In this document: positions 30,119-38,972 of the stretch, piece after piece
How the letters are laid out: each line of letters starts with the position of its first letter
Position numbering within the stretch: the first letter of the stretch is position 1
From: Polaromonas sp. YR568
Lineage (GTDB): Bacteria > Pseudomonadota > Gammaproteobacteria > Burkholderiales > Burkholderiaceae_C
Length of the DNA stretch: 64,000 bases
Direction of reading: 5' to 3'
Assembly (NCBI GenBank): GCA_945878995.1
Contig: CAMCUN010000003.1
Span: 1-64,000 of the forward strand
Program-made: the position numbers and the translations under genes
Notes under the pieces: model-generated
Seen by the model: only the letters and a program-made list of their open reading frames with translations
Told to the model about the DNA's origin: nothing
The model's database searches: none

Positions 30119-30568
30119 TCAGCGATTGGCTTGGCGCTTGAGCCAGCGCATCAAGGCGCCCAAGCCAGGCAACTTTTCATAGAGCTCTTCGGCCGCGTCC
30201 CAATAGTCGCGGTGAAACACCACTTTGCCGGCGTCGTCAAAGCGCAGGTGAGAGGTGCCGCGCACGGTCTGCCAAGTCACGCGGTCAAAGCGCTTGAAGC
30301 GAAAGCGAAAATCCCACACCAAAAAGCATTCGCTGCCCTGCGCCACGCGCCCGGTGACGATGAAATGCGGCTGATCCAGCGCCTCGAACATGTGCGAGAA
30401 GATGCGCTCCATCTCGGCCACGCCTTTGACCTCGTTGAAGGGGTCTTTGAAAAAGGTATCGGCCGCATACAAGTCTTTGAGCCTGGCCACATCGGCGGGC
30501 TGGAGCTTTTCATAAAAGATCACCAATTCATCCACCGCCAAGGCCATCTGGGGCTCAATCGCGCTCAT
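30119..30568 (-). CDS. NTF2-like (SnoaL-type) protein
   Basis: A 149-residue protein with a nuclear-transport-factor-2 fold, ending the eight-gene minus-strand operon. The start at 30568 has an AAGGAG site and overlaps the SDR stop by 4 bp (ATGA). It contains the pattern YEKLQPADVARLKDLYAAD, then a Phe-rich strand region and a FHRDYWDAAEELYEK end. Such proteins are commonly small isomerases, cyclases or hydrolases; no catalytic triad can be assigned from sequence. Confidence 0.8.
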   Translation of the reverse strand: MSAIEPQMALAVDELVIFYEKLQPADVARLKDLYAADTFFKDPFNEVKGVAEMERIFSHMFEALDQPHFIVTGRVAQGSECFLVWDFRFRFKRFDRVTWQTVRGTSHLRFDDAGKVVFHRDYWDAAEELYEKLPGLGALMRWLKRQANR

Positions 30569-31341
30569 GGGTGCTCCTTGACCATGCGCTTGACCAGCGG
30601 CAAATAAAGCCCATACGGCAGCCACTGCAACACCTTCATCGCGAAGGTAAAGCGGCGCGGAAAATGAATTTCAAAGCGGCCGCGCGCCCAGCCCTGCACG
30701 ATTTCATCAGCGGCCTGCTCGGCTGTGATGAGTGCGGGCATGGCAAATTGGTTTTGCGCGGTCAGGCCGGTTTTCACAAAACCGGGGTTGATCAGGCTAA
30801 CGCCCAAGCCGCGCGGGCTCAAGTCGGCGTACAGGGTTTCGGCCAGGTTGATCAGGGCCGCCTTGGTGGGGCCATAAGCGAGGCTGTTGGGCAAGCCGCG
30901 AAAGCCGGCCACACTGGAGATCAGGCTGATGTGGCCACGGCGCTGCTGCAAGAAATGCGGCAGCACCGCATCGAGCACATACAGCGCGCCCAGGTAGTTG
31001 ATGTTCTGGTGCTTGAGCATTTCAGCCAAGTCAAACTCGTAAGCCCGCTGAGCCTTGTAGTGGCCGGCGCAGTAAGCCACCAGGTCCAGGCCGCCACTGG
31101 CCATGAGCTGGCCGGCCGCCTCGCGCAGGGCCTGGGGGTCGGTGGCGTCCAACGGCAGGGCCACGGCGCCCGGGTGGGCGTGCACAAAAGAGGCCAAGGC
31201 CGAGGCATTGCGGGCCGACACCGCAACCCGCGCGCCCCGGGCATGCAGGGCTCGGGCGGTGGCCAAGCCAATGCCGCTGGAAGCGCCTATCAGCCAGACC
31301 GTTTTGCCAGTCCAGTCGCGAAGGGTGGGGTTGTGTGACAT
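30565..31341 (-). CDS. Short-chain dehydrogenase/reductase
   Basis: A 258-residue Rossmann-fold oxidoreductase. The cofactor loop GASSGIG lies at 19-25, and the catalytic serine and YxxxK occur in SSVAGFRGLPNSLAYGPTKAAL. It belongs to the classical SDR group. It follows the DUF3833 gene by 14 bp and overlaps the NTF2-like gene by 4 bp. Homologous SDRs accompany the CFA/DUF1365 set in other bacteria, which suggests a lipid or quinone substrate. Confidence 0.9.
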   Translation of the reverse strand: MSHNPTLRDWTGKTVWLIGASSGIGLATARALHARGARVAVSARNASALASFVHAHPGAVALPLDATDPQALREAAGQLMASGGLDLVAYCAGHYKAQRAYEFDLAEMLKHQNINYLGALYVLDAVLPHFLQQRRGHISLISSVAGFRGLPNSLAYGPTKAALINLAETLYADLSPRGLGVSLINPGFVKTGLTAQNQFAMPALITAEQAADEIVQGWARGRFEIHFPRRFTFAMKVLQWLPYGLYLPLVKRMVKEHP

Positions 31342-31355
31342 GAAAAGGTCGGGCC

Positions 31356-31940
31356 TCAGCGCTTGACGAATGACAGGGTGACCTCGCCCAAGCGCACGCC
31401 AAACTTGCTCATGACGGCTTTGTTGAGCATCACGCGCTGGTCCATGAGGTACATCCAGTCGTCGAATTGCACTTCAAAGGTGCGGCCATCCACCGGCAAG
31501 CGCAGCGTGTAGCCAAAGCGAAAGGCGTTGCCGCTTTCTTCGCCCAGGGCCTGGCCTTCCACGTCGGCAGCGGTGCCTACGTAACGGCCTTCGCCGGTGC
31601 GCTTGAGCGTCCACACGCGCCTGTCGCGGGTGCCGTCGGAGTAGGTGAATTCTTCGTCCAGCACGCCGATTTCCTGGCCCGCCGAACCGCTCCAGCTGCA
31701 GGTCATGACCACCGTGAAGCGCTTGACCACCTTGCCCGAACGGTCGGTGAACACGCCGTAAGCATCCAAAGTGCCGTTGAAATACTGGCGCATGTCCAGC
31801 TTGGGCTGTTCACGGGCGTAGTCGCTGGCCTGGGGCCCGGCACATCCGCTCAAGCCCACGGCCAGGCCGACTGACAGCAGCAAGGCGGCCAAGCCGGTGC
31901 GTGCGCGACTTGCAAACAGTGTTTGAAAAAGAAATTTCAT
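31356..31940 (-). CDS. DUF3833 family lipoprotein
   Basis: A 194-residue predicted lipoprotein. The start at 31940 overlaps the transporter stop by 4 bp. The N-terminus has a basic region, a hydrophobic core, and lipobox LSGC (Cys near 31). The DUF3833 region includes MRQYFNGTLDAYGVF, a repeated Trp/Asp strand pattern, and the DDWMYLMDQRVMLNKAVMSKFG end. Function unknown, but the family is a regular member of this gene set. Confidence 0.87.
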   Translation of the reverse strand: MKFLFQTLFASRARTGLAALLLSVGLAVGLSGCAGPQASDYAREQPKLDMRQYFNGTLDAYGVFTDRSGKVVKRFTVVMTCSWSGSAGQEIGVLDEEFTYSDGTRDRRVWTLKRTGEGRYVGTAADVEGQALGEESGNAFRFGYTLRLPVDGRTFEVQFDDWMYLMDQRVMLNKAVMSKFGVRLGEVTLSFVKR

Positions 31941-33229
31941 GTGCGTGTGTCCTGCGTAAGTGGGGCCAAGCCCCGAGGGTGTCGAATGATCCAGGCGTAC
32001 AAGGCGGCGGCGGCAGCGAGCTTGAGCGCGCAGGGCAAAAGGCAATACGCCACCACCAGCGCATCCAAGCCTTGCGCATCGCGCACGCCAGGCGCGTAGC
32101 CAAAAAGCTCCAGCAGCGGCAAGGCCAAACCGGCGGCCAGCGCCAAATTGAGCTTGGTGGCGAAATTCCACCAGCCAAAGTAGGTGCCCGCATGGCGCTC
32201 GCCGGGCTGGGCCTGAATCAGCCCGGCCAGCATGGCGCCAGGCAGGGCGAGATCGGCCCCCAGGGCCAGGCCCGACAAGGCGCACACGGCCATGAATGCA
32301 TAGGCATCGCCCGCACCCAACTGGCTGGCCCACACAAACACAGCCACGGCCAGCAGCATGCCGATCAGCCAGCTGCGCGCCAGCCCCAGGCGTTTGACCA
32401 GCGCCAGCCACAGCGGGATGGACAAGGCGGCGCACAAAAAATAGCTGCCCAAAAACAGCGGCTCCATGGCGGGCGGGGCTTGGAGCCTGTCTTGCACGAA
32501 AAAAAGCACCAAGGTGGCCGGCACCGCACTGGCCACGCCGTTGAGCATGAACACAGCCAAAAGCTTTTGAAAGGCCGGTTGGCGCAGCGGCGCCCACAGC
32601 GGCACGTTCTCGGTGCGGGTGTGCGACACATCAGGCGCCAGGCTGCCGCGCCAAGCCAGCCAGCCCAAGGCCAGCAGGGCCACAAACACCGCCAAGGCCA
32701 GCGGCATGCCCAGCAGCGAAGGCAATACCGAGGCCGTGAGCACCCCCACCAAACCCAGCGCTTCGCGCCCCCCCGTGATGCGGCTGCGCTCCGCCTGCGT
32801 GCCGCCCAGCAGCGCGCCCCAGGCCTGGTGCATGATGCTCAGCAGGCTGTAGCCCAAGTAAGTGAGCAAGAGCATGCCAGCCGCCCAGAGCAGCAGGGCC
32901 TGGGCATCGGGCGCGGTCAAAAAGCGGTCCGGGGAAAACAGCAAGACCAAGCCGGCGGCCAAGCACACCGCCGCCAGCGCCGCCACACCCAACACGGCCT
33001 GCGGCGAGCGGGCCAGCAGCTTGTCGCTCCAGCGGCCCAGCAAGGGGTCCACCAGCGCGTCGGCCAGGCGGGCACCCAAAAGCACGGCACCCAGGGCCGC
33101 CAGCGGCACGCCAAATTCACGCGCGTAGTGGTTGGGCAAAATCACATACAAGGGCAGCGCCGCAAAGGCCAGCGGCAAGCCCAGCAAGCCATAGGCCAAG
33201 ACATTGCGCCAAGCAAAAACAGGGTTCAC
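31937..33229 (-). CDS. MFS transporter, GPH (MelB-like) family
   Basis: A 430-residue, 12-helix inner-membrane transporter. It begins with a GTG at 33229 that overlaps the preceding stop (GTGA). Residues such as GARLADALVDPLLGRWSDK match the conserved loop of sodium/melibiose-type symporters. The natural substrate is unknown. Tight coupling to the lipid-modifying genes suggests export or import of a lipid precursor or fatty acid, but that is inference. Confidence 0.87.
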   Translation of the reverse strand: MNPVFAWRNVLAYGLLGLPLAFAALPLYVILPNHYAREFGVPLAALGAVLLGARLADALVDPLLGRWSDKLLARSPQAVLGVAALAAVCLAAGLVLLFSPDRFLTAPDAQALLLWAAGMLLLTYLGYSLLSIMHQAWGALLGGTQAERSRITGGREALGLVGVLTASVLPSLLGMPLALAVFVALLALGWLAWRGSLAPDVSHTRTENVPLWAPLRQPAFQKLLAVFMLNGVASAVPATLVLFFVQDRLQAPPAMEPLFLGSYFLCAALSIPLWLALVKRLGLARSWLIGMLLAVAVFVWASQLGAGDAYAFMAVCALSGLALGADLALPGAMLAGLIQAQPGERHAGTYFGWWNFATKLNLALAAGLALPLLELFGYAPGVRDAQGLDALVVAYCLLPCALKLAAAAALYAWIIRHPRGLAPLTQDTRT

Positions 33230-33783
33230 GGCGTGCCCAGCAAGGCTTGGCGCATCGCCGGCTCGGAGCTGCGGGGCGACAGCCAAATGCCAAAAAAGGC
33301 ACGGGCAAATTCAGCATCGCGGATGTCGCCGCGCAATTGGCCGTTGAACCAAAAAGCCGCGCCCTGCCCGGGCTGCTGCACGCCGAGCAAGCGGTCGCCT
33401 TTTTTCACATTGGGAAACACGCGGCGCATCTCGTCGAGCCAGAGTTTTTCTTGCTCGCCGGACACGGGGCTGAGCCGGCGCATTTCTTTGAGCGAGCGCT
33501 CGGCAATGTCGACTGCCGCAAAGTCGCGCAGGTAGCGCAACTCCAGCGCCAGCGGGTGGGCGTCAAAACCAGTGGCGCTGAATCCCGGCCTCACCCACAA
33601 ACCCGCGTCGTACACCTCAAAGCCCCACACGCGAAAACGCGTCTGCCCCGCCAAACTGGCGCCTGGCAGGGCCTGGGCCAGCTCGGCAGGGGCAGGCTGC
33701 GCCCACGCCCCACCGCAGCTCAAGAGTACAAGGCCAGAAGCCAACAACATGCGGCGTGTCATCGGAGCGCGGTCAGGGGTCAT
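33226..33783 (-). CDS. Chalcone isomerase-like periplasmic protein
   Basis: A 185-residue protein with a signal peptide (MTRRMLLASGLVLLSCGGAWAQ) and a chalcone-isomerase-like domain (RFRVWGFEVYDAGLWVRPGF, LALELRYLRDFAAVDIAERS, WFNGQLRGDI). Bacterial members lack the plant flavonoid role and probably bind fatty acids or other small hydrophobic ligands. It starts 3 bp after the methyltransferase stop, so it is in the same operon. Confidence 0.85.
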   Translation of the reverse strand: MTPDRAPMTRRMLLASGLVLLSCGGAWAQPAPAELAQALPGASLAGQTRFRVWGFEVYDAGLWVRPGFSATGFDAHPLALELRYLRDFAAVDIAERSLKEMRRLSPVSGEQEKLWLDEMRRVFPNVKKGDRLLGVQQPGQGAAFWFNGQLRGDIRDAEFARAFFGIWLSPRSSEPAMRQALLGTP

Positions 33784-33786
33784 GGA

Positions 33787-35019
33787 TCAAGCCTTTTGCA
33801 AGGTGAACTGCACCACATCGGTGCTGCGCTCTGCAAAAGCGGCCTCGCAGTAAGCCAGGTAAAACTCCCAGATGCGCATGAACTTGCGGTCAAAGCCCAG
33901 CTTGAGCACTTCAGACTCCTGGCGCAAGAAGTCGTCGCGCCACAGGCGCAAGGTCTGGGCATAGTCTTGCCCAAAACAAAATTCATCAACCACTGTTAAC
34001 CCAGCCAAGCGGGCTTGCTCGCGGAAAGCTTGGGGGCTGGGCAGGCAGCCGCCAGGAAAAATGTATTGCTGGATAAAGTCGGTCGAATCCAGGTAGCGCT
34101 CAAAAAACTCGTCGGCAATCACAATGCTTTGAATGCAGGCGCGCCCACCTGGCTTGAGCAAGCTGGCCACCGTTTGAAAGTAAGTGGGCCAAAACTCACG
34201 GCCCACGGCCTCAATCATCTCAATGGAGCACACCACATCAAACGGCGCCTCGGTGCGGGCAATGTCGCGGTAGTCCTGCAGCCGCAGTTCGGCACGGTCC
34301 TGCATGCCCAGCCGTGCCATGCGCTGCTGGGCCCAGGCCAGCTGCTCGGTGGACAAGGTCACGCCCACCAAAGACGCGCCAAACTCGGTGGTAGCCATCT
34401 CGGCCAAAGCCCCCCAGCCACAACCGATTTCCAGCAACCGCTGGCCGGGCTGCACGTCCACCATGCGCAAAGCGCGGCGCACCTTGGCCTGCTGGGCCAG
34501 CCGCATGGACTGGCCTGGCGACTCAAACACCGCCGAGGAGTAGTTCATGGTGTCGTCCAACCACAGCTCGTAAAACGCATTGCCCAGGTCGTAATGGGCA
34601 TGAATATTTTTTTGGCTGCCGCCTTTGGTGTTGCGGTTGAGCAGGTGCTTGAGGCGGTAGACCAGGCGCCCCAGCCAGCTGCCATAAATCACACTGTCCA
34701 CCTCGCGGCGGTTGGCAATGAACAGGCGCAGCAAGTCCGTCAGCGCAGGCGTGCTCCAGTCGCCAGCAATAAAGCCCTCGGCAAAGCCAATGTCCCCGGA
34801 CTTGAGCGCGGCGCTGCACACATTCCAGTTGTGCAAGTGCAAGCTGGCGGCAGGGCCATCGCCGTGGCCAAAGCGCTGCACCGAGCCGTCGGGCAGCTGC
34901 ACAGTCAGCGTGCCGTGCTTGAGGAGCTGCAGCAACTTGAGCACGGTGCGCGCGGCCGCGGGTGCGCCGGTGGGCAAGGGGGTGGCCGCGCTGGGGCGGC
35001 TTGGGGTGGCTGGGTTCAT
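33787..35019 (-). CDS. SAM-dependent methyltransferase, cyclopropane-fatty-acyl-phospholipid synthase family
   Basis: A 410-residue enzyme that would act on unsaturated fatty acyl chains of membrane lipids. The SAM motif LLEIGCGWGALAEMA and the CFA signatures HYDLGNAFYELWLDDTMNYS and EMIEAVGREFWPTYF are visible. Length exceeds E. coli Cfa (382 residues). Related enzymes in photo-oxidative clusters make methylated or furan fatty acids rather than cyclopropanes; which product is made here is not decided by sequence alone. It overlaps DUF1365 by 4 bp. Confidence 0.9.
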   Translation of the reverse strand: MNPATPSRPSAATPLPTGAPAAARTVLKLLQLLKHGTLTVQLPDGSVQRFGHGDGPAASLHLHNWNVCSAALKSGDIGFAEGFIAGDWSTPALTDLLRLFIANRREVDSVIYGSWLGRLVYRLKHLLNRNTKGGSQKNIHAHYDLGNAFYELWLDDTMNYSSAVFESPGQSMRLAQQAKVRRALRMVDVQPGQRLLEIGCGWGALAEMATTEFGASLVGVTLSTEQLAWAQQRMARLGMQDRAELRLQDYRDIARTEAPFDVVCSIEMIEAVGREFWPTYFQTVASLLKPGGRACIQSIVIADEFFERYLDSTDFIQQYIFPGGCLPSPQAFREQARLAGLTVVDEFCFGQDYAQTLRLWRDDFLRQESEVLKLGFDRKFMRIWEFYLAYCEAAFAERSTDVVQFTLQKA

Positions 35020-35783
35020 CGGGTCACAAACTGTTCAGGGGGCGGGGGTTTAGAGACAAAGGGCACACGCTTGCGCCACAACTTAAAAGCTTGCCAGTGG
35101 ATGCGGGCCACCACGCCCAGGGTCATGGCCGGGTAAGCCCACAGCGCACGCTTGAGGCTGGCAGCCGTCACAGGCTCCAAAGTGCCGGACACGCTGGTGA
35201 CCAAGAGCGGACCGCTGTCGTCGTCCACATCAATGCGCGCCACGGTGCGCTCTTGCGTGCTGTGGTGCAAGGTGCGCATGAAGCGAAAGCGGTAGCCGCC
35301 CTCAATCCGGCAAAAAGGCGAGACGTGAAAGACCTTGCGCGCACGCATTTCCTGGCCGTAGCGGGGTGCGTCGTCAAGCAAATAGCAGTGGCGCTCGCCA
35401 AACGTATTGTTGACCTCGACCACGATGGCGCTCAACGCGCCTGCTGCATCGTGGGCATACCAAAAGCTCACCGGTTTGAAGGTGTGGCCCCAAACGCGCG
35501 GGTAGGTGTGCAGCCAGACCTCGCCGGTCGCCGCCAGGCCTTCAGTGGCCAGCAGCTCATCGAGCCAGGCCAGGCAATCGGGGCGGCCGTCGCCGTGGTC
35601 GCGGTCATAAAAACTCAAGGGTGCCCAGCAGTTGCGCGCCAGCGCGCCCGCGCCTTGCTGGCGCATGCTGCGCAGTGGCAGCATGAGAAAGTGCGTGGGG
35701 TAGGCGAAGGTGTTGGCCGCCGGGCGCAGGCGCTGGTGGCGCACCTGGCCAAAACCAATGAGGGGCTGCGGCGCGTGCGTCAT
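35016..35783 (-). CDS. DUF1365 domain-containing protein (COG3496)
   Basis: A 255-residue protein. The start at 35783 gives the family opening LIGFGQVRHQRLRPAANTF, which continues into ARNCWAPLSFYDRDHGDG and VWGHTFKPVSFWYAHD. The frame is open for a further 88 codons but inside the upstream gene. DUF1365 is nearly always next to CFA-type enzymes and COG2907 oxidoreductases. Its biochemical role is unknown. Confidence 0.88.
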   Translation of the reverse strand: MTHAPQPLIGFGQVRHQRLRPAANTFAYPTHFLMLPLRSMRQQGAGALARNCWAPLSFYDRDHGDGRPDCLAWLDELLATEGLAATGEVWLHTYPRVWGHTFKPVSFWYAHDAAGALSAIVVEVNNTFGERHCYLLDDAPRYGQEMRARKVFHVSPFCRIEGGYRFRFMRTLHHSTQERTVARIDVDDDSGPLLVTSVSGTLEPVTAASLKRALWAYPAMTLGVVARIHWQAFKLWRKRVPFVSKPPPPEQFVTR

Positions 35784-35793
35784 CCGACCGACC

Positions 35794-37215
35794 TCAACCC
35801 TGGGCCTGCACTGGCACCTGCACAGGCGCTTGCTGTGTTTGCCGGGCCCAGTCATCGAGCAAGAGGCGAGCGGCCTGCAAGCCGGCTTTGAGGCCGTCTT
35901 CATGAAATCCGTAACCTGCCCAAGCGCCACAAAAATAGCTGTGCAGCTGGCCTTGCAGATGCGGCAGCTGCTCTTGGGCGTGGATGGCGGCGGCATCAAA
36001 CACCGGGTGGGCGTAGTCGTACTCGCCCAAAATGTGTCGTTCATCAATGGGGCTCAGCGGGTTGAGCGAGACGATGACCGACTGCTTGAACGGCAGGGGC
36101 TGCAGCATGTTGAGCAAATAGTGCAGGCACACCTGGGCCGATTCGCGGCCCGCATCGGCCGCACGCTCGTAGTTCCAGGCCGCCCATGCCAGCCGGCGGC
36201 GGGGCAGCACCGACTCATCGGTGTGCAGCACGGCGCGGTTGGGCTGGTAAGCAATGGCGCCCAGCACCGCAAGCTCAGCGGCGCTGGGCTGGCTGAGCAA
36301 GGCCAGCGACTGGTCGGAGTGGCCCGCCAAGATGACTTTGTCAAAGTGCTCGGTGTGCAACTGGCCCGATTGCTGGCTGGTCAGGCGCACGCCATCGCTT
36401 TGGCGCTCGACGGCCAGCACCGGGCAATTCAAGCGCTTGTCGGCAATGTTCGCCGTGATTTTGCGCACATAGTCGCGGGCGCCGCCGGCCACCGTCCACC
36501 ACTGCGGCCGGTCGGCCACCTGCAAGAGGCCGTGGTTGTGGCAAAAGCGCACCATGGTGGCCACCGGAAACTGCAGCATTTGGTCGGTAGGGCAAGACCA
36601 AATGCAGCCCAGCATGGGTAAAAAATAGCCGTCGCGGAACTCGGAAGAAAAGCCTTGCTCGCTCAAAAAAGCGCCCAGCGGCTGCATCAGCGCCTCATCA
36701 TCGCCGCCAGTTTCCAGCGATTGGGCCAAGCTGGTGCTCAGGCGGTTAAAGCGCATGATGTCTTTGAGCATGCGCCAAAAGCTGGGCCGCAACAGGTTGG
36801 CGCGCTGGGCAAACACCGCATTCAGGCTGGAGCCGCTCCACTCCAGCGCCGAGCGCTGCGCGGTGGCCGGTGACTGCACCGAAAACGACATGTCCGACTT
36901 GGCCGTCGGCACATCAAGTTCCGAGAACAGGCCAATCAGCTGCGGGTAGGTGCGCTCGTTGAAGACCAAAAAACCGGTGTCCACGCCGTGCGTAACTTCT
37001 CCCTGGGGGCCGGGCATCGTCACGTCGACCGTGTGGGTGTGGCCGCCAAAATAATCGCCCGCCTCCAACAGCGTGATCTGCGCTTGGCCGCGCAGCTGGT
37101 GGGCCGCAGCCAGGCCCGCAATGCCAGAGCCCACAATGGCCACGCGCGGCAAGAGCCTGCTGTTGTCCTGGCCTGTCACGGGTTCGAGGGTGCGGGAAGC
37201 AAATACAGCGACCAT
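35794..37215 (-). CDS. FAD/NAD(P)-binding amine-oxidase-like protein (COG2907)
   Basis: A 473-residue flavoprotein with the dinucleotide fold near the start (AIVGSGIAGLAAAHQL, GSGIAG at 29-34) and the LEAGDYFGGHTHTV Glu-ended strand. It resembles phytoene-desaturase-like amine oxidases. I start it at the ATG at 37215. It is the first gene of the eight-gene operon. Related proteins are thought to desaturate or oxidise fatty acyl chains, but activity on lipids is inferred from the operon, not from motifs. Confidence 0.88.
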   Translation of the reverse strand: MVAVFASRTLEPVTGQDNSRLLPRVAIVGSGIAGLAAAHQLRGQAQITLLEAGDYFGGHTHTVDVTMPGPQGEVTHGVDTGFLVFNERTYPQLIGLFSELDVPTAKSDMSFSVQSPATAQRSALEWSGSSLNAVFAQRANLLRPSFWRMLKDIMRFNRLSTSLAQSLETGGDDEALMQPLGAFLSEQGFSSEFRDGYFLPMLGCIWSCPTDQMLQFPVATMVRFCHNHGLLQVADRPQWWTVAGGARDYVRKITANIADKRLNCPVLAVERQSDGVRLTSQQSGQLHTEHFDKVILAGHSDQSLALLSQPSAAELAVLGAIAYQPNRAVLHTDESVLPRRRLAWAAWNYERAADAGRESAQVCLHYLLNMLQPLPFKQSVIVSLNPLSPIDERHILGEYDYAHPVFDAAAIHAQEQLPHLQGQLHSYFCGAWAGYGFHEDGLKAGLQAARLLLDDWARQTQQAPVQVPVQAQG

Positions 37216-37346: not shown

Positions 37347-37398
37347 CTTGATTTGTATAAAAATAAAACTAATTGGTCGAAATATTACCATTTGGTAT

Positions 37399-37992
37399 TT
37401 ATTTTGCCAGCAGTTGTTCAATTTGTCGAGTCATTCGCGCGTCCAAGGGCCCGGTGGTCGAGCCAAAGTTGGCCGCCACCTGACCGTCGCGGCCCACCAC
37501 GTACTTGAAAAAGTTCCAGCGCGGAACCGCGCCACTTTGGCTGGCCAACTGCTTGTAAAGCGGATGGGCATTTTTGCCCGTCACCGTGGTTTTGGTGAAC
37601 ATAGGGAACTTCACGCCGAAGGTGTTTTCGCAAAAAGCGGCTATTTCTTTGTTGCTGCCGCCTTCTTGGGAAAAGTCGTTGGAAGGAAATCCCAGCACCA
37701 CCAGGCCTTTGTCCTTGTACTTGGCGTGCAGCGCCTCCAGCCCGGCATACTGGGGGGTAAACCCACAAAAACTAGCGGTATTCACCACCACCAGCACCTT
37801 GCCAGCGTACTGGCACAGCGCCTGTGGTTTTTCGTCCTGCAGGCGGGGCACGGTGTGCTGCAACAGCGCCGGACAAGCCGCCGCTGAGGGCTCTGACTGG
37901 GCCGCAGGGGCCTGGGCCCACGCGGTGCCAAATTGGCAACTTAAAGCCCAAGCAAGGAGGGCAGCGGGGCGAGGCAAAAAATACAAGCGCAT
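37399..37992 (-). CDS. Glutathione peroxidase-like protein, exported
   Basis: A 197-residue thiol peroxidase with a signal peptide (start MRLYFLPRPAALLAWALSC, cut near AWAQ). The peroxidatic residue is Cys76 in VNTASFCGFTPQYAG, not selenocysteine. The second GPx motif LGFPSNDFSQE and the PRWNFFKY segment with the conserved Trp follow. A GGAG eight bases before the ATG at 37992 supports this start. It lies just upstream of the lipid-modification operon and could detoxify lipid peroxides in the periplasm. Confidence 0.88.
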   Translation of the reverse strand: MRLYFLPRPAALLAWALSCQFGTAWAQAPAAQSEPSAAACPALLQHTVPRLQDEKPQALCQYAGKVLVVVNTASFCGFTPQYAGLEALHAKYKDKGLVVLGFPSNDFSQEGGSNKEIAAFCENTFGVKFPMFTKTTVTGKNAHPLYKQLASQSGAVPRWNFFKYVVGRDGQVAANFGSTTGPLDARMTRQIEQLLAK

Positions 37993-38114
37993 GGGGCCAA
38001 CTCCAAGAAGGAAACTGTACATGCGGGGCACTGTACCGCAGCCCCTCTGATTCAGCGAAGCCTCACCTAAAATGTCATTAGACGCCAACCCCTGCTGGGC
38101 GCACGAGGAACCAC

Positions 38115-38972
38115 ATGCTTTATCCCGAATTGTTCAAACAACTCGAATCCGTCCGTTGGGACATGGACAAGGACATTCCCTGGGCATGCTTTGACAGCCA
38201 ACTGCTCACCCAGGAGCAGGCCCAGACCATCAAAATGAACGCCATCACCGAGTGGGCGGCACTGCCAGCCACCGAAATGTTCCTGCGCGACAACCGCGGC
38301 GACAGCGATTTTTCGGCCTTCATGTCGATTTGGTTTTTTGAAGAGCAAAAGCACTCCCTGGTGCTGATGGAGTACCTGCGCCGCTTCATGCCCGAGTTCG
38401 CCCCCAGCGAACAAGAGTTGCACGAAGTGCGCTTTGAGTTTGAGCCAGCCCCGGCCCTGGAGACCTTGATGCTGCACTTTTGCGGCGAAATCCGGCTCAA
38501 TCACTGGTACCGCCGGGCCGCCGAGTGGCACACCGAGCCCGTCATCAAGCACATTTACACCCAACTCAGCCAAGACGAGGCGCGCCACGGCGGCGCTTAC
38601 CTGCGCTACATGAAGCGCGCCATCTTGCAGTGCGGCGACGAGGCGCGCGCCGCATTCAGCAAAGTGGGCGTGCTCATGGCCAGCGCCAAGCGCACGGCCC
38701 AGGCCTTGCACCCCACCAACTTGCATGTGAACAAAGCGCTTTTTCCGCGCGACACCATCCAGTCCCGGCTGCCCAACCCCGTGTGGCTGGAGCACTGGCT
38801 GAGCGAGCAGATCAAGTTCGACAGCGAATGGGAGTCCAAAGTGGTGGAGCGCATCTTGCACAACATGAGCTTGTTGATGAACCAGAGCTTTCACACCGTG
38901 CAAGAACTCAACCGTTTTCGCAAGGAACTCATGCGCAAGCTCGCCCCAGCCGGCGGTGTGCAGCCTGCATGA
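38115..38972 (+). CDS. Ferritin-like diiron protein (acyl-ACP desaturase-like)
   Basis: A 285-residue protein with two ExxH motifs, EEQKH (77-80) and DEARH (155-158), plus glutamates near 46 and 125, the usual ligands of a four-helix diiron oxidase. Overall size and layout resemble ferritin-like and acyl-ACP-desaturase-like proteins. Its stop overlaps the rfaE2 start by 3 bp (ATGA). A fatty-acid desaturase role would fit the neighbouring lipid genes but is not shown. The spacer before it holds TAAAAT at about 38057. Confidence 0.75.
   Translation: MLYPELFKQLESVRWDMDKDIPWACFDSQLLTQEQAQTIKMNAITEWAALPATEMFLRDNRGDSDFSAFMSIWFFEEQKHSLVLMEYLRRFMPEFAPSEQELHEVRFEFEPAPALETLMLHFCGEIRLNHWYRRAAEWHTEPVIKHIYTQLSQDEARHGGAYLRYMKRAILQCGDEARAAFSKVGVLMASAKRTAQALHPTNLHVNKALFPRDTIQSRLPNPVWLEHWLSEQIKFDSEWESKVVERILHNMSLLMNQSFHTVQELNRFRKELMRKLAPAGGVQPA

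Follow-up and report, generated by a model that had tools for sequence, protein, structure and literature searches.

A probable furan fatty acid operon of Polaromonas sp. YR568 and its candidate TetR-family repressor

Furan fatty acids are singlet-oxygen scavengers. RPA2571 (UfaD, a desaturase-related FAD protein), RPA2570 (UfaO, a DUF1365 protein) and RPA2569 (UfaM, an S-adenosylmethionine (SAM) methylase) are necessary and sufficient for formation of the furan fatty acid 9M5-FuFA in Rhodopseudomonas palustris (PMC7380195), and the RSP1091-1087 operon of Rhodobacter sphaeroides consists of ufaD, ufaO, a GPH-family symporter gene, a gene for a hypothetical protein and a short-chain dehydrogenase/reductase (SDR) gene (PMC7074977). 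The R. sphaeroides operon is under RpoE-ChrR control, and the light regulon of the Pseudomonas class II LitR proteins (PplR/PmlR) includes UfaM, an FAD oxidoreductase and an SDR, gene types in common with the operon described here. We analysed the first 64,000 nucleotides of contig CAMCUN010000003.1 (C3) of Polaromonas sp. YR568 (GCA_945878995.1; genome G000, 4.15 Mb, 154 contigs, 96.5% complete), and this whole stretch is called the window. It carries eight minus-strand genes (30119-37215), and sequence comparison makes it likely that they form a furan fatty acid operon which is repressed, via a tandem dyad at 37368-37396, by a TetR protein encoded elsewhere in the genome, and which is not controlled by RpoE-ChrR or LitR.

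The three protein types of the Ufa pathway were found together in the window: an FAD/amine-oxidase-like acyl desaturase of the UfaD type (ufaD, 35794-37215, minus strand; PF01593, 60 bits), a DUF1365 protein of the type of the furan-forming oxygenase UfaO (ufaO, 35016-35783, minus strand; PF07103, 260 bits), and a UfaM-type SAM methyltransferase of the cyclopropane fatty acid (CFA) synthase family (ufaM, 33787-35019, minus strand; PF02353, 289 bits). The ufaD product, whose COG2907 number is a label taken over from an earlier note on this DNA and whose nearest solved structures are those of the LkcE amine oxidase, corresponds in protein type and operon position to RSP1091 and RPA2571. The order ufaD-ufaO-ufaM is that of RPA2571-2570-2569, matched by type and order only, and the window operon has five genes more. 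As in R. sphaeroides, the UfaD and UfaO types, a GPH symporter and an SDR are combined in one operon; ufaM of R. sphaeroides (RSP2144) lies apart from RSP1091-1087, whereas the window ufaM lies inside the operon, which also has chalcone-isomerase-like (CHI) and NTF2-like genes beyond the R. sphaeroides set. A further difference is that the genome of the window has no full ChrR match and that a TetR-type dyad is present at the promoter.

We propose that the operon serves both the synthesis and the handling of furan fatty acids of membrane phospholipids. In this organism UfaM would methylate a phospholipid acyl chain, UfaD would desaturate the methylated chain, and UfaO would insert oxygen derived from O2, leading to closure of the furan ring. 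The earlier note had described a photo-oxidative membrane-lipid pathway; the lipid part agrees with the types and order of the first three genes, and the photo-oxidative part is only plausible, because a pair of reaction-centre genes (PF00124, presumably pufL and pufM) is present in the genome. Together with a B12-binding protein that we take to be AerR/PpaA-like, these genes (contigs C14 and C79) suggest that the source organism is an anoxygenic phototroph.

The pathway is known and the gene set is a standard one; what appears to be new is the regulator assignment, which has good comparative support from gene content, a conserved operator-like motif, and the linkage, co-occurrence and orthology of TetR genes. 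Comparison was performed with 126 sequences, comprising 71 loci from a DUF3833 protein scan of named genomes, 53 loci from an order-wide sample of 200 Burkholderiales genomes, L133 (found by its TetR match) and the window. All 126 were selected by DUF3833, so counts of gene order express what accompanies DUF3833 and not the frequency of the operon, and some incomplete orders are truncated at contig ends. Dyads were counted in 102 loci, after leaving out 24 of the 126 that had no ufaD match or fewer than 600 bp upstream; L242 was excluded from alignment A5 for a stop in its DUF1365 stretch.

The candidate operator is the tandem dyad ACCAAATGGT-N9-ACCAATTAGT at 37368-37396 (minus strand), upstream of ufaD. 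It is the sole match in the 64 kb to the pattern ACY-N4-RGT-N8-12-ACY-N4-RGT, which fixes 12 positions. Such a dyad stands before ufaD in 36 of the 49 sequences with room for it (window included), versus three matches in the other 1,190,035 bases of those sequences, and in 48 of the 102 loci of the larger set. Sorted by context, it was found in 15 of 18 loci with an adjacent TetR gene, in 12 of 36 that have a LitR-type gene no more than 5 kb upstream of ufaD, and in 21 of 48 with neither; no locus (0/102) had both an adjacent TetR gene and a LitR-type gene within that distance. At some TetR-adjacent loci (e.g. L133, L196, L201) the dyad overlaps the initial codons of the TetR match.

All 18 adjacent TetR genes are divergent from ufaD, and the 15 dyads lie at the junction. 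Five of them belong to the 71 named loci (L063, L065, L066, L068 and L071); the other 13 come from the order sample, where 33 genomes have both TetR and DUF3833 and 13 of these place the two no more than 7.4 kb apart, with TetR divergent from ufaD in 13/13. TetR genes were called in that sample with profile A2 at E ≤ 1e-30, the best 15 candidates per genome being scored, and were thus found in 36 of 200 genomes. DUF3833 is present in 33 of these 36 versus 40 of the 164 others (Fisher, p = 3e-14, genomes counted as independent and kinship ignored). Among the genomes with both, 31 of 33 were tested for the dyad, G114 and G156 being the two left out; from the 40 with DUF3833 and no TetR call, 24 loci were retrieved, 21 of them with enough sequence upstream of ufaD. 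A dyad within 700 bp was found in 13 of the 31 TetR-positive operon loci (window included) versus 0 of the 21 TetR-negative ones (p = 6e-4, kinship ignored). Of 12 further genomes from the genus of the window, 7 have TetR, and where the ufaD upstream was usable the dyad was present in 5/5 TetR-positive (G004, G006, G010, G011, G012) and 0/2 TetR-negative genomes (G001, G002).

The orthologue in the source genome (G000 C12:61545-62144; PF00440, 57.6 bits) scored 370 bits to profile A2, of which it is the first row, and 342 bits to profile A1, which was built without it. In the tree it falls in a clade of 12 (support 98/95), together with the ufaD-adjacent TetRs of L063, L065 and L068 and with fasciclin-adjacent TetRs. 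A fasciclin match lies within about 1.5 kb of TetR in 8 of 42 TetR rows, on several tree branches, and in three genomes of the window's genus (G005, G009, G012) a dyad stands in front of a fasciclin gene that neighbours TetR, the domain being confirmed by Pfam for one. The fasciclin RSP_1409 belongs to the RpoE regulon of R. sphaeroides (PMC7074977) and a fasciclin protein of Azospirillum is reported to be under RpoE-ChrR (PMC10949492). Since the TetR gene and the dyad occur beside fasciclin as well as ufa genes, this TetR seems to be located at genes that RpoE serves elsewhere; of the hints at function this is the strongest.

The TetR protein would bind the dyad and repress the operon, and would be released by some signal, for example light-born stress or a lipid altered by oxidation or other modification. 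It is probably a third type of regulator for ufa operons beside RpoE-ChrR and LitR. A bolder proposal can be offered only tentatively: a dedicated TetR that is widespread in Burkholderiales may have replaced RpoE-ChrR/LitR for a regulon of ufa and fasciclin genes, sensing an oxidised or furan lipid by direct binding, and an MFSD2A-like transporter may, with CHI-like and DUF3833 envelope proteins, move furan lysolipids across the envelope. No paper on a TetR-type regulator of furan fatty acids was found by title or abstract start among the open-licence papers listed, which is weak evidence that none is published.

Several points weigh against control by this TetR. The TetR gene of the source genome lies away from the operon, and its own locus showed no strict dyad; among 17 order-sample operon loci (window apart) having non-adjacent TetR only, the dyad was found within 700 bp in 2, and one more, L212, has it further upstream. 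The strict dyad is missing from 54 of the 102 loci, of which 3 have TetR next to ufaD, and the 12 LitR-type loci carrying it show that it is not restricted to LitR-free loci. Some of these non-adjacent TetRs look like paralogues, for example in G080 and G163, where the neighbour is an isochorismatase-like gene and dyads of this type are present; because the family has paralogues, presence of a member does not always mean ufa control. The p values take no account of kinship, and the two TetR-negative congeners G001 and G002 are only 81% and 83% complete. Finally, profile A2 was made from TetRs beside ufaD, beside fasciclin or from the window's genus, and the dyad pattern was set by eye on some of the sequences later counted; the view used for this spanned -150 to +90, and 21 of the 35 relatives' matches in the 49-sequence set lie at -220 to -370, outside it.

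Other arrangements were seen around TetR genes. The source TetR gene shares 4 bp with a gene for a histidine kinase (265 aa, HisKA/HATPase; L125:5689-6486 (+)), and by reading two relatives (L126, L127) have longer histidine-kinase-like open reading frames (ORFs) at that position. L248 and L249 contain a TetR paralogue and a divergent gene labelled isochorismatase-like by reading, with two or three overlapping tandem dyads. In G125 (L250:5293-5826) a TetR gene and a CHI-like gene are divergently oriented, the product of the latter being 34% identical to the operon CHI protein.

One alternative is that the furan operon depends on the housekeeping machinery or on a different regulator, be it a global one, RpoH or the single ECF-like sigma factor, and that the dyad is used by another protein or only reflects promoter conservation. 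The dyad spacer is TA-rich and -10-like in relatives, so part of the conservation could be that of a promoter, and the promoter scan of the window gave one candidate, 37401-37429, just upstream of the dyad. One weak match (C97) of the four sigma-70 region-2 matches in the source genome is, by reading, of the extracytoplasmic function (ECF) type, and TetR is encoded in trans. Against this, both half-dyads recur and not the spacer alone, and dyad presence tracks TetR presence, and we regard this alternative as unlikely.

The chemistry could also differ, the methyltransferase making cyclopropane or merely methyl-branched fatty acids and no furan. Its homology is to CFA synthase, and in the E. coli enzyme bicarbonate is bound by Glu239, His266 and Tyr317, mutation of which lowers activity (PMC11387697). 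Located by alignment to 6bqc, Glu239 is kept in 110/110 and Tyr317 in 113/113 operon homologues, whereas the His266 column is Gln in 111/111 homologues covering it (window included in each count). Judged from this ligand set, which departs at His266, the window enzyme is not a standard cyclopropane synthase. UfaD- and UfaO-type genes also adjoin its gene, and a product other than a furan is quite improbable.

The known regulators were searched for in the window and the genome. As the earlier note had stated for rpoE/chrR, a MerR-type sensor and photolyase, the profile searches gave no match on contig C3 to ChrR (TIGR02451), sigma-70 region 2, MerR_1 or photolyase (PF03441); three photolyase-domain genes lie on other contigs. 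The genome search that the note had proposed was run: in the 96.5% complete genome no full-length ChrR was found, the best TIGR02451 score being 38.5 bits versus a cut-off of 124.5 and covering the cupin part only, and none of seven MerR_1 matches was LitR-like by reading. Among the six B12-binding matches, five were read and none was a MerR/B12-binding fusion. Two candidates were rejected. The cupin protein on C104 (236 aa) scored 119 bits to PF12973, but its 38.5 bits to TIGR02451 span only positions 98-188 of 216; the B12-binding protein on C79, tried as LitR, by reading resembles AerR/PpaA. The claim that the operon is without its regulator stands for ChrR and LitR and does not for the window as a whole, which holds the candidate operator at 37368-37396, its TetR likely being on another contig.

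LitR-type genes accompany such operons elsewhere: 36 of 102 loci have one in the 5 kb upstream of ufaD, and in a number of Burkholderiales (L214-L247) a LitR-type MerR gene, a FolE2-like GTP-cyclohydrolase gene and photolyase-related genes (labels by reading) precede the ufa operon, the L224 protein having MerR and B12-binding domains by Pfam. These operons (e.g. L224, L225, L228-L231) mostly have the same eight genes as the window; they differ in that the LitR-type gene adjoins, whereas the window operon has none beside it, and in that the dyad is missing in 24/36, whereas the window has one. The nearest loci by DUF3833 identity with sufficient flank (L016-L019, L021, L022) likewise have no LitR-type gene beside the operon. 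The Pseudomonas class II LitR consensus, T(G/A)TACA-N12-TGTA(C/T)A, is unlike the window dyad, and paired LitR-type sites (TGTACA-like) upstream of ufaD were found in 1 of 100 scanned loci (L209; L200 and L203 left out) and not in the window. Control by an RpoE-ChrR or LitR encoded in an unassembled part of the genome, which the 154-contig, incomplete assembly and the frequency of LitR-type neighbours would allow, is highly improbable, given that ChrR exceeded the cut-off in 1 of 200 order-sample genomes, itself without a DUF3833 match, and that neither a LitR-type gene nor a LitR-type paired site accompanies the window operon.

The layout given in the earlier note was borne out in full by the ORFs and Pfam matches. 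Downstream of ufaM, on the minus strand, lie genes for a CHI-like protein with a signal-peptide-like N-terminus by eye (33226-33783; PF16036, 56.6 bits), a GPH/MFS_2 transporter (31937-33229; PF13347, 171 bits), a DUF3833 protein with a lipobox-like N-terminus by eye (31356-31940; PF12915, 218 bits), an SDR (30565-31341; PF00106, 128 bits) and an NTF2/SnoaL-like protein (30119-30568; PF12680, 52 bits). Overlaps of 4 bp occur at DUF1365/CFA, CHI/MFS, MFS/DUF3833 and SDR/NTF2; the CHI/MFS overlap arises when the transporter starts at GTG 33229, and the SDR/NTF2 overlap when the NTF2-like protein starts at ATG 30568. The gaps are 10 bp (COG2907/DUF1365), 3 bp (CFA/CHI) and 14 bp (DUF3833/SDR).

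This gene set is ordinary. The complete order COG2907-DUF1365-CFA-CHI-MFS-DUF3833-SDR-NTF2 was found in 88 of the 126 sequences (window included), so the arrangement is beyond chance; 8 of the 126 have only CHI-DUF3833 on that strand, and DUF3833 is present in 73 of the 200 order-sample genomes. The transporter and the NTF2-like gene had been singled out as distinctive. Neither is, both being part of this order: the NTF2-like gene also occurs in the Pseudomonas loci L082 and L083, and the GPH transporter is no peculiarity of the window because the R. sphaeroides operon has a GPH symporter, RSP_1089 being annotated as 'Sugar/cation symporter, GPH family' (PMC7074977). In L082 and L083, CFA-DUF1365-COG2907-SDR-NTF2 and CHI-DUF3833 form two opposite-strand blocks with no transporter match, whereas the window has one block.

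The operon is flanked by genes for a glutathione S-transferase (GST) and purB (label by reading) on one side, and by those for a glutathione peroxidase (gpx, 37399-38088, minus strand; PF00255, 110.7 bits) and a di-iron ferritin/acyl-desaturase-like protein outside the operon (38115-38972, plus strand) on the other. Of 106 sequences, 43 have a glutathione peroxidase in the 4 kb upstream of ufaD, and 58 have the di-iron protein no further than 10 kb from ufaD, at LitR-type and TetR-type operons too. The di-iron protein matches PF03405 over 51 residues (134-184 only; 27.7 bits, cut-off 22.7), and it is possible that it is a ninth functional partner of the operon.

A conserved RNA element of about 105 nt was seen just before ufaD in many Polaromonas-like loci (L024:4461-4577, L053:4635-4748 and 21 more in alignment A3). 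It has a 9-bp closing helix, two inner hairpins and a C/U-rich CUCCUCC loop followed by a U-run, with compensatory change in 8 of 22 pairs; single-member folds were clearly better than shuffles in 2 of 4 cases (z -3.5 and -3.7; the others -1.7 and -2.2). The loci of six relatives had no Rfam match at gathering scores. One copy is present in 9 of 12 congeneric genomes, and L262:1501-1607(-) and L263:422-531(+) also carry it. The element was not found in the window or source genome among the best 150 candidates scored, and it is degenerate in L016 (25 bits). G003 and G008 retain it, flanked by GST and a gene read as rfaE2-like, at a site with no operon gene found; the element may thus be a small RNA in its own right.

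The five downstream genes (CHI, MFS_2, DUF3833, SDR and NTF2) are probably not biosynthetic, since deletion of RSP1087, 1088 or 1089 left the fatty acid profile of R. sphaeroides unchanged (PMC7380195). A profile of 14 operon transporters, compared with solved structures, ranked the lysophosphatidylcholine symporter MFSD2A first (7mjs, 93 bits) and the melibiose permease MelB after it (70 bits); the single-sequence search against the PDB gave chance matches only, and neither of these. DUF3833, the family to which RSP1088 presumably belongs, has an invariant Cys33 across 25 aligned sequences, and the DUF3833 and DUF1365 profiles had no convincing match among solved structures. The accessory proteins would most likely act in trafficking or disposal of modified (lyso)lipids, as the MFSD2A-like profile and the signal-peptide-like and lipobox-like starts suggest.

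If the TetR switch is true, one pathway would be wired to three unrelated regulators. A switch at a defined 29-bp site would make the regulation of this pathway in phototrophic Burkholderiales directly testable and would give a handle on the inducer, and the conserved accessory genes appear to point to lipid transport as the other half of the pathway.

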